Positions 1,239 to 3,617 of a DNA stretch of 26,227 bases are shown here, piece after piece. Location of the stretch: positions 1 to 26,227 of IMG/VR virus record IMGVR_UViG_3300017758_000103. One strand, 5' to 3'. The stretch's first letter is position 1; the number at the start of each line of letters is the position of its first letter. Both the position numbers and the translations under genes were made by a program. The notes beneath the pieces were generated by a model that saw only the letters and a program-made list of their open reading frames with translations, was not told where the DNA came from and ran no database searches. The stretch comes from a virus.

Positions 1239-1307
1239 CCGGCCGGCCGGAAAGTTTTACTATAAGGAAAAACCCCCAAGAAGGTTGCCAGTCAGCGTAT
1301 TTCAATT
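1239..1307 (-). repeat. Composite repeat, copy 1 (palindrome + core)
   Basis: The perfect palindrome CCGGCCGGCCGG at 1239-1250 is followed, after a gap of 32 bases, by the core at 1283-1307 whose end reads GCGTATTTCAATT (+ strand). The sequence just after the palindrome (AAAGTTTTACTATAAGG) is nearly identical to the matching part of copy 2. On the minus strand the core directly follows a TAA codon. Confidence 0.8.
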
Positions 1308-1525
1308 AGCTGCATCAGAGCAGCAGAACCAGGAGCTGCTGCAGCAGTCCTTCCTGGAGCTGGGCTGCAGCGAACCAGGCGACCACTGCGATCCAAAAAA
1401 TTGGCCAAAACATTAGCTTTTTCTCCATGCGTCATGCTTCCCATCACCTGCAACCATCTGTGATTCAGGGAACGAATCATATAGAATGGCTGTTTTCTGC
1501 GGGTTATTTTCAAAAGTTTTACGAA

Positions 1526-1592
1526 CCGGCCGGCCGGAGTTTTTACTATAAGGCATAGATCCCCGAACGGCTGAAAACCAACGTATTTCAAT
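1526..1592 (-). repeat. Composite repeat, copy 2
   Basis: Palindrome CCGGCCGGCCGG at 1526-1537, followed by AGTTTTTACTATAAGG, then the core 1569-1592 reading GGCTGAAAACCAACGTATTT plus CAAT on the + strand. The palindrome-to-core gap is 31 bases, the same as in the other copies to within one base. On the minus strand the core begins at the TGA stop of the 114-aa gene. Confidence 0.85.
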
Positions 1593-1936
1593 CATGCAGA
1601 AGCCTCCAGCATCTGCTGCATCTGCGACCAGGCCGCAGCTTCAGAGTCAACCAGGACATGTGCACCATCTCCCCAATCCAGAAACCAGTATTCCAAGCGG
1701 TGAATTTCTTTATGTTCGTTAACGTATGCCCTGAGCTCATCCGATGGACCACCCCAGCTGAACTGCCAGCGCCAGTAACCTTCTATCTGATCATTAAATG
1801 TATGCGGTTCTACATAGTCGAAGCCAAGCGCCTCGTACTCAGGGTCTTCCAGATCCATCTTTCTTCCTTTCCACATGTGCTTCACCAGCTCTGCGCAGGT
1901 GGGGTTCTTCTTTATTACTGTTACAGTCTCTGTCAT
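1592..1936 (-). CDS. Hypothetical protein, 114 aa, in the GC-rich region
   Basis: Not assigned to a named family. The acidic, Trp-rich middle contains GYWRWQFSWGGPSDELR and, further on, EYWFLDWGDGAHVLV. This looks like a compact conserved alpha/beta fold of the kind found in hypothetical proteins of phages and gammaproteobacteria, though I cannot name it. I chose the ATG at 1936 (MTETVTV) because GAAAGGA lies just upstream; an earlier in-frame ATG at 1996 would overlap the -10 region. Its GC content and codon choice differ markedly from its AT-rich neighbours, pointing to recent transfer. It has its own promoter and is flanked by composite repeats. Confidence 0.75.
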   Translation of the reverse strand: MTETVTVIKKNPTCAELVKHMWKGRKMDLEDPEYEALGFDYVEPHTFNDQIEGYWRWQFSWGGPSDELRAYVNEHKEIHRLEYWFLDWGDGAHVLVDSEAAAWSQMQQMLEASA

Positions 1937-2000
1937 GTTGTTCCTTTCTTTAATGGGGGCGTTTGCAAAACTTCTAAACGGATTCGGTACCCCCACTACA

Positions 2001-2029
2001 TATATAGTTATAACTTATTATAATGTAAA
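2001..2029 (-). promoter_or_regulatory. Promoter for the 114-aa gene
   Basis: On the minus strand, TTTACA (2024-2029) is separated by exactly 17 bases from TATATA (2001-2006). The start codon is 65 bases downstream of the -10 box. The motif fits host sigma70 consensus well and lies in a short AT-rich island inside the GC-rich region. Confidence 0.6.
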
Positions 2030-2084
2030 GCAAAAAGATTTAAATTTTTTGAATAACTTCCAGACTGGTATCCATCCCAGTTCG

Positions 2085-2154
2085 CTGCCCGGCCCAGCTC
2101 ACTTCACTATACAGGATTCAGGAACAAACGGCTGAGAATCAAGGTATTTCAATT
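2085..2154 (-). repeat. Composite repeat, copy 3 (degenerate palindrome)
   Basis: The core at 2130-2154 (GGCTGAGAATCAAGGTATTT then CAATT) is well conserved. At the position where the palindrome should lie (2085-2096) the sequence is CTGCCCGGCCCA, a decayed version of CCGGCCGGCCGG. The conserved spacing is what identifies it. On the minus strand the core follows a TAA codon. Confidence 0.65.
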
Positions 2155-2261
2155 ACAGGATCCTGACCCCTGGCAGCAGCTGCGGGCTGCAGCTTCAGAT
2201 GGAACTGAGAATCGGCAGACTTCTGCCATTTATTATACTTGACATGAGGCGAAAACACGGA

Positions 2262-2329
2262 CCGGCCGGCCGGTGAATTATACTAATAGTTCGAATTAAA
2301 CCGTGGGCTGCAACTCAAGGTATTTTAAT
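2262..2329 (-). repeat. Composite repeat, copy 4, overlapping the VRR-NUC 3' end
   Basis: Palindrome at 2262-2273, gap of 32 bases, core at 2306-2329 (GGCTGCAACTCAAGGTATTT then TAAT). Here, unlike in copies 1-3, the core is coding. It specifies the last residues of the VRR-NUC protein (LKYLELQP) and the gene's stop lies inside the unit. Confidence 0.8.
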
Positions 2330-2727
2330 ATCTGATCTCCTGTCCAAGGATCAGGTATCATGTACCCTGAACCCTGGTTCAGTAGTTCTAAACCATGAAC
2401 ATGTAGTTCACGAATCATATGTCCTGGGAATACAGCTATACCTCCAGGGCCCTTGGCCCTATTGCTAATTTTTACAAATATATAACTCACACCACCATGC
2501 TTTGTATGAGCATAATGCCATGCAATTTGCTTTGGCGAAATGATAACTTTTTGTAACTTGTTACATTTTAATTCTACCCAAAATTGTATTCCCTTTTTAT
2601 TGTCTAAACCCTTGAAAACTCCAAACAAATCAGGCACTCCAGGTGAAGCCCATGACTCTATTCTAGTCCAATTAACATTCGACATCTTATTTTTAATTTC
2701 TTGCCAAAATTTCTTTTCAGGACGCAC
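2296..2727 (-). CDS. VRR-NUC domain nuclease
   Basis: A stand-alone 143-aa VRR-NUC protein of the PD-(D/E)XK superfamily, the standard phage size. Visible motifs are GVPDL (residues 31-35, catalytic Asp33), FWVELK (49-54, Glu52 and Lys54) and SPKQIAWH (64-71, the conserved Gln). Family members cut branched or structured DNA, so roles in recombination, Holliday-type resolution or trimming before packaging are likely. It starts with GTG preceded by AAGGAAG at good distance, and overlaps the 3' end of the HNH gene by 11 bases. The C-terminal codons (LKYLELQPTV) lie within composite repeat copy 4, whose core is echoed three times further on. Confidence 0.85.
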   Translation of the reverse strand: MRPEKKFWQEIKNKMSNVNWTRIESWASPGVPDLFGVFKGLDNKKGIQFWVELKCNKLQKVIISPKQIAWHYAHTKHGGVSYIFVKISNRAKGPGGIAVFPGHMIRELHVHGLELLNQGSGYMIPDPWTGDQILKYLELQPTV

Positions 2728-3157
2728 TACTAACTTCCTTTTTTGTTAATATTTTATGGCAATTTGAACACAAAATATCACACTTTTTTACCTCTTCAAC
2801 TATGTTGTTAAGCTGTGTCCAACTGCTTTTTCTAATATTTGACACATTATTAGACTTGTTATTTCTATTACGATGATGAAATTCTAAAGCGTAAGGACTC
2901 TCGTTGTAACCACATTTTTGACAACCTTTACTTAATTTATAATTGTTTAAATAATTAGATACTTTGTCATACAGCTTCTTTTTGTATAATTTCTTATAAG
3001 CTACGTTTTTTTTAAAACTACTAGGCTCTCTCCAATTCTCTTTAAAATATCCATCTCTCTTTAATCTTGCAGTTATATAACCATCAAATAAATATCCATC
3101 TTCTCTGACATCTCCGCATACAAATAATTTGTTAGTCTTGGGATTCAATCTCTTCAT
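2717..3157 (-). CDS. HNH endonuclease beside the terminase
   Basis: A 146-aa protein with a C-terminal HNH fold: zinc-type pair C79xxC82, the catalytic His pair HH at 94-95, and the second knuckle C130xxCH (130-134). The N-terminal 70 residues are Lys/Tyr-rich and probably bind DNA. HNH proteins encoded next to terminases are a known component of packaging machines, where they assist TerL in cleaving DNA (work on HK97-like phages). Homing endonucleases look similar, so a selfish role is the main alternative. The frame overlaps the 3' end of terS by 26 bases and the start of the VRR-NUC gene by 11 bases, a compact three-gene unit. Confidence 0.8.
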   Translation of the reverse strand: MKRLNPKTNKLFVCGDVREDGYLFDGYITARLKRDGYFKENWREPSSFKKNVAYKKLYKKKLYDKVSNYLNNYKLSKGCQKCGYNESPYALEFHHRNRNNKSNNVSNIRKSSWTQLNNIVEEVKKCDILCSNCHKILTKKEVSSAS

Positions 3158-3617
3158 GAGATACGTCTACAATTACTTCCGGAAATCTATTCCTAAGATC
3201 TTTAAGCCTATCTGCTACTTCAATCTTACTCATTTTATCAATTGATCCTGTTAATATTTCTTTACGATCTACATATAATCCAGCAGCTCTGCCTCGTGAT
3301 ACTTCTGCATTAACTGCCGCTGAATAATTTTTTTCTGACTCTGCGTTCTTACTTAATTCATCTAATCTTTTCATATGTCTTGTTATATTTGACATATACT
3401 TTTTATGAATTTCTTCTCTTAATAGAGATATATAATTAGCAACCTTTGGAAACTCTTTAGCTGATTGCAATCTACTAGCATAAATTCTAGCTGTCTTTTT
3501 TGGATAACCAGATAATATAGCACATTCAGTTGCACTTTTGTCTCCATCATACTTAACTAAAAGCTCTGCAAACTTTCTTTGTTTTGATGTTAAATTAATT
3601 TCAGTTAATTGACTCAT
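3132..3617 (-). CDS. terS: Terminase small subunit
   Basis: A 161-aa protein with the typical TerS layout. The N-terminal helix-turn-helix DNA-binding domain (residues 10-52) contains SKQRKFAELLVKYDG and an SGYPKKTARIYASRL recognition-helix region. A central helical oligomerisation segment (about 60-115) and an acidic C-terminal tail (EVIVDVSHEEIESQD) for TerL contact follow. TerS binds the packaging site and recruits TerL. The ATG has no clear ribosome-binding site of its own but overlaps the stop of a small upstream frame as ATGA, hinting at coupling. A dense cluster of GGTTACACC repeats lies just upstream. Confidence 0.8.
   Translation of the reverse strand: MSQLTEINLTSKQRKFAELLVKYDGDKSATECAILSGYPKKTARIYASRLQSAKEFPKVANYISLLREEIHKKYMSNITRHMKRLDELSKNAESEKNYSAAVNAEVSRGRAAGLYVDRKEILTGSIDKMSKIEVADRLKDLRNRFPEVIVDVSHEEIESQD

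Follow-up and report, generated by a model that had tools for sequence, protein, structure and literature searches.

A repeated promoter-like unit with a GC-rich hairpin in a cassette array between the terminase genes of marine phages

A marine phage related to phages of SAR11 bacteria carries an array of four composite repeats between the genes for its two terminase subunits. We read each repeat as a transcription-control element, comprising a non-standard promoter and a leader hairpin, whose similar copies permit the exchange of the small gene cassettes lying between them, and we place the probability of this reading at roughly 60%. The window, the whole stretch of DNA analysed, is a 26,227-base IMG/VR virus record in which the array spans 1238-2328, with all four units on the minus strand and co-directional with the genes. 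The neighbouring genes are without exception encoded on the minus strand, which makes this the natural strand for reading the unit. In the proposed mechanism, AAATACCTT near -50, CAGCC or CACGCC near -35 and TATAGT or TATAC near -10 would serve as promoter boxes, and the GC-rich stem-loop would form at the 5' end of the transcript. The unit copy at the end of most array genes would provide whichever small gene or gene-less segment comes next with a start of its own. Homologous recombination in and around the copies would then allow phages to swap, gain and lose cassettes, an exchange made possible because the copies are alike and placed between the cassettes.

Architecture and conservation of the unit

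On the minus strand the unit runs AAATACCTT-N6-CAGCC, an unconserved spacer of 17-19 nt, TATAGT and a GC stem-loop, usually (CCGG)3; one subtype has CACGCC for CAGCC, and TATAC can stand for TATAGT. Unit 1 (2261-2328) features AAATAC at 2320-2325, CAGCC at 2306-2310, the -10-like box TATTAGT at 2282-2288 and the stem-loop ACCGG(CCGG)CCGGT at 2261-2274, and overlaps the 3' end of a nuclease gene. Unit 2 (2084-2152), the copy first described as decayed, has AAATAC at 2144-2149, CAGCC at 2130-2134, TATAGT at 2106-2111 and the stem-loop GCTG(GGCCGGG)CAGC at 2084-2098. Unit 3 (1526-1591) starts right after the stop codon of a gene for a 114-aa protein and comprises AAATAC at 1583-1588, CAGCC at 1569-1573, TATAGT at 1545-1550 and CCGG(CCGG)CCGG at 1526-1537. 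Unit 4 (1238-1305) comprises AAATAC at 1297-1302, CAACC at 1283-1287, TATAGT at 1259-1264 and TCCGG(CCGG)CCGGA at 1238-1251.

The first-pass annotation had proposed a four-copy composite repeat with fixed internal spacing, and its palindromes and four cores were re-found at the positions it gave. The 12-base palindrome CCGGCCGGCCGG occurs with 0 mismatches at 1239, 1526 and 2262, where 0.02 copies with up to two mismatches are expected by chance in the window; the minus-strand sequence GCTGGGCCGGGCAGC at about 2084-2098 is a degraded copy. The cores at 1283, 1569, 2130 and 2306 form one repeat family, although the common ending first ascribed to them needs correction at 2306, where the core ends GTATTTTAAT, not GTATTTCAAT. 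In the three intact units, 31-32 nt indeed separate the palindrome end from the core, but the palindrome shifts by several bases and the rigid part of the unit is AAATAC/CAGCC/TATAGT. A profile search of the window recovered exactly these four copies and no others; the profile was built from these same units, and its E-values serve for ranking matches only.

The geometry holds among relatives. Across 66 units from 16 arrays, the AAATAC offset is fixed, the CxGCC box ends at 23-24 and the -10-like box lies at 40-45, with box offsets searched within fixed windows of profile-aligned units, which somewhat limits their scatter. The spacer measures 17-19 nt in these 66 units, with one exception of 21 nt, and the stem-loop begins 10-18 nt from the first base of the -10-like box; one unit, truncated by a contig end, showed no -10-like box. 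Within the CAGCC subtype, AAATAC and most positions of CAGCC carry 1.7 bits of information, the spacer drops to about 0.1-0.5 bits and TATAGT is mostly at 1.1-1.7 bits. Core identity among close relatives is 94%, versus 96% for the flanking genes, and in the 40 nt past the hairpin mean identity is 87%, with a minimum of 62%. Every array has its units on the coding strand, and a unit frequently starts at a stop codon or overlaps one.

A spacer of constant length and unconserved sequence leading into a -10-like box is characteristic of promoters. Combined with the constant orientation and gene-end position, it is best fitted by a promoter whose upstream boxes are unusual, followed by a leader hairpin, in keeping with an early suggestion that the repeat might be a control site. 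The core thus probably acts as a promoter, and the units may represent a candidate class of non-standard promoters. None of the units was recognised as a promoter in a scan with the sigma-70 consensus, which implies that transcription would depend on an activator or an altered polymerase; we speculate that a phage activator, or RNA polymerase modified by the phage, reads the core.

The stem-loop keeps its place as its sequence changes: (CCGG)3, GCTG..CAGC, CGGACC..GGTCCG and ACCGGC..GCCGGT all occur at the same position, and GGATCG(GCTT)CGATCC is placed likewise in a second-site unit of one relative (L143). The score exceeds the mean of shuffled sequences in 46 of 55 stem-loops, few of them individually at p<0.05. 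This excess is modest, with GC composition supplying part of the signal, and (CCGG)n may for that reason have a role at the DNA level. In RNA, the hairpin would probably act as a leader stabiliser, attenuator or operator. Separately, a locally stable hairpin zone lies just upstream of the units (offset -40 to -18), possibly marking terminators of the upstream genes. The unit was rejected as protein-coding: some copies are open (a 60-aa ORF spans 1413-1595) and others contain in-frame stop codons.

Cassettes, recombinant arrays and the neighbouring nuclease

Relatives differ in the segments that separate their units and carry them in reassorted combinations, bearing out the initial impression of a cassette array. 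In the window, the first cargo slot (1592-1936, minus strand) encodes the 114-aa protein, with a weak match to phrog_36747 (unknown function), and in L013, L014, L015 and L104 it holds an unrelated protein of 126-129 aa instead. By tblastn against cultured phages, the 114-aa protein of the window gave only weak matches, in four Vibrio phages, and the other slot 1 proteins gave none; no cargo protein matched Pfam or PDB significantly by sequence. The second slot (1315-1428, minus strand) encodes a 37-aa hydrophobic peptide of FWPI type, which in relatives is replaced by an MQFQ (52 aa) or MSSIL (38 aa) peptide; judged from composition, all three types are apparently membrane-located. Five slot 1/slot 2 pairings occur: (114,FWPI), (129,FWPI), (114,MSSIL), (129,MSSIL) and (114,MQFQ). 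Four of them, formed by two alternatives in each of two slots, pass the four-gamete test, and since all four exist, any single tree would require exchange or parallel change to account for them.

 L007 matches L016 at 90-100% through unit 2 (U2) and loses the match at U3, and matches L010 mostly at 95-100% from the slot 1 leader onward. It is a recombinant with an L016-like left and an L010-like right part, the switch point lying after U2 and before the slot 1 gene; its slot 2 replacement begins at U3. In L241 (1158-2150), the nuclease belongs to another lineage (49% identity), the leader region differs and U1 and U2 are absent, while the block of slot 1, slot 2, U3 and U4 is near-identical to that of relatives; this contig is likewise a recombinant, with a different left flank. 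These data agree with the earlier proposal of a recombination point for cargo exchange, and the units themselves are probably favoured exchange points. Ordinary homologous recombination in the flanking sequence also explains the exchange of cassettes.

The slot 1 gene is further preceded by an ordinary promoter-like sequence, TTTACATTATAATAAGTTATAACTATATATG (1997-2030, minus strand), which is distinct from the units and also kept upstream of the 129-aa genes; with its own promoter-like sequence in place, a unit is not obviously needed there. Its leader contains a conserved hairpin (1955-1994, minus strand) of two helices, with a GGGGG/TGTGGC outer stem, a CCGTTT inner stem and two compensatory pairs, which precedes both the 114-aa gene and the 126-aa gene of L104.

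Beyond unit 1 lie, all on the minus strand, genes for a 143-aa PD-(D/E)XK nuclease (2296-2727), an HNH endonuclease (2717-3157) and the terminase small subunit (3132-3617). On the other side are genes for a 122-aa protein of unknown function (705-1073), which forms the right border of the array in related contigs reaching that far, an 85-aa protein (448-705) and, by collinearity with L023, the start of the terminase large subunit (1-129), cut by the contig end. A location between packaging genes, as first annotated, is thereby upheld. The 143-aa nuclease conserves a PD...ELK motif over 16 relatives and matched nothing significantly in Pfam or PDB by sequence. The best PDB matches of its AlphaFold2 model (mean pLDDT 83) are the Holliday junction resolvases Hjc and RecU, at TM-scores of about 0.5-0.6, and it is a matter of speculation that the nuclease assists cassette exchange.

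This resemblance, the overlap of the nuclease gene with unit 1, the reassorting cassettes and the rise in divergence past the palindrome would all suit a dedicated recombination system, in which the palindromes extrude as cruciforms and are cut by the resolvase-like nuclease, driving exchange. We consider this unlikely, as it is the AAATAC/CAGCC/TATAGT core that is conserved best while the palindrome changes sequence, and dozens of distant relatives have the nuclease without the unit. Furthermore, neither a tyrosine integrase (PF00589) nor a Y1 transposase (PF01797) was matched in three contigs, which are possibly incomplete; controls for the integrase search did match.

The gene-less segments between units align across arrays and are rich in short hairpins, raising the prospect that each unit and the following ~100 nt form a tandem structured small RNA gene, with periods of 150-177 nt, into which protein genes were later inserted. 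The odds on this are low: downstream folding energies do not stand out from those of dinucleotide shuffles (most z values between -2.5 and +2), the region has no Rfam match and the segments are less conserved than the core. These energies and the lack of an Rfam family also led us to reject a structured small RNA following the hairpin.

Distribution among marine phages

An initial pattern scan turned up seven other viral contigs with the unit, and protein-anchored searches added further ones, giving at least 22 other IMG/VR contigs in total. Units are present in 24 of 24 tabulated loci, and complete arrays hold 4-5, except in the recombinant L241. The array site is constant, from the nuclease gene to the 122-aa gene between the terminase small and large subunits, and thus the recurrence at one terminase-side locus that the first-pass annotation had looked to as support is observed. 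In a single subclade (L016/L153, L019, L020 and L143), a homologue of the 85-aa gene precedes a further unit of the same geometry, about 800 bp further on. At this second site, L143 (4480-4505) and L153 (near 5854) feature a T-arm-like hairpin with the loop GTTTGAAAT, and the loop region includes the AAATCC box of the second-site unit.

Elsewhere, the tripartite core gave chance matches only, two among 2.9 million viral contigs, and a single match in 85,000 prokaryote genomes, within an unrelated Lachnospiraceae sequence. The broader pattern AAATAC..CGGCCGGCCG gave mostly chance matches in viral contigs, yet yielded L104, L143 and L094. Similar DNA was found in none of the cultured phages searched. 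The nearest cultured relatives include the Pelagibacter phages HTVC027P and HTVC023P, and the unit profile had no matches in HTVC027P, 023Pt_psg01 or DSL-LC04.

The position between terS and terL, the repetition of the sites and the nearby HNH gene are what packaging-initiation (cos/pac) or terminase-binding repeats would predict. That the units are such sites is nevertheless improbable, given that they stand at gene ends, spread over >1 kb and carry a -10-like box at fixed distance, and that the HTVC027P locus has other repeats and no unit. Although a GC palindrome is repeated, copy number varies and one subclade has a second site, a miniature transposon or REP-like repeat dispersed by a trans-acting transposase is very hard to reconcile with confinement to one locus in almost every genome, the single orientation and the searches above, and the self-mobile element initially entertained thus finds no support.

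GC-rich sequence downstream of the nuclease extends further than the unit. Among more distant relatives, about 50 loci with the nuclease (33-43% identity) were examined, and there too the downstream region is GC-rich, though without the unit. Its first blocks typically reach 45-58% GC, where the locus as a whole has 32-42%; the enrichment is weaker in a few. The island of HTVC027P contains GCTTGAAGCTTG-type repeats and that of L163 contains ATTATTAC palindromes; in L028 (4281-4354), L163, L169, L173, L183 and L222, GCTTGAAGCTTG-like or ATTATTAC repeats replace the unit in the GC-rich island after the nuclease. We regard with considerable doubt a wider reading, in which the repeated promoter-hairpin units are joints of a gene-swapping island where the co-encoded resolvase-like nuclease acts, and the islands of these distant relatives are variants with other repeats. 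HTVC023P-type phages, distant relatives of the window phage, are reported to be widespread in the ocean (PMC9599517). In such genomes the array reveals the site and manner of small accessory gene swapping, and host-takeover genes could be sought in the GC-rich exchange island that lies between the two terminase genes.

Comparison with known systems

Like REP/BIME elements, the units place GC-rich palindromes between genes; they differ in their single locus, one orientation and long conserved flank with fixed boxes, and a RAYT-type Y1 transposase was not found in the three contigs. Integron attC sites similarly recur behind each gene and make cassettes exchangeable, whereas the units are promoter-like in layout. 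The attC relation considered at the outset is unsupported, as no tyrosine integrase was detected in the three contigs and informal inspection revealed no inverted pair of core sites (RYYYAAC/GTTRRRY). Lambda-type cos/pac regions also have repeated binding sites adjoining terminase genes, whereas the units here occupy gene ends, carry a promoter-like core and are dispersed over >1 kb.

The closest parallel is found in the promoter early stem-loops (PeSLs) of T4-like phages (Arbiol et al. 2010; Comeau et al. 2014; both cited in PMC4503421), although no named phage element of this form had been recognized initially. PeSLs are likewise described as composites of promoter and stem-loop, repeated between small genes and tied to gene shuffling in a variable region. 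The reassorting cassettes and recombinant arrays match this modular shuffling. Compared with PeSLs, the units lack the host-like sigma-70 promoter, having two other boxes in place of the TTGACA -35 and only a conserved -10-like box; their stem-loop is followed on the coding strand by at most marginal tails and no U-tract; and they sit at essentially one locus in relatives of HTVC023P and HTVC027P, not in T4-like myoviruses. With sigma-70 promoter, U-tract and T4-like genome all differing, we file the unit as PeSL-like and not as a PeSL. By analogy it would work as PeSLs do, making them its nearest functional analogue and extending the idea of promoter-hairpin cassettes as gene-exchange joints past the T4-like phages.
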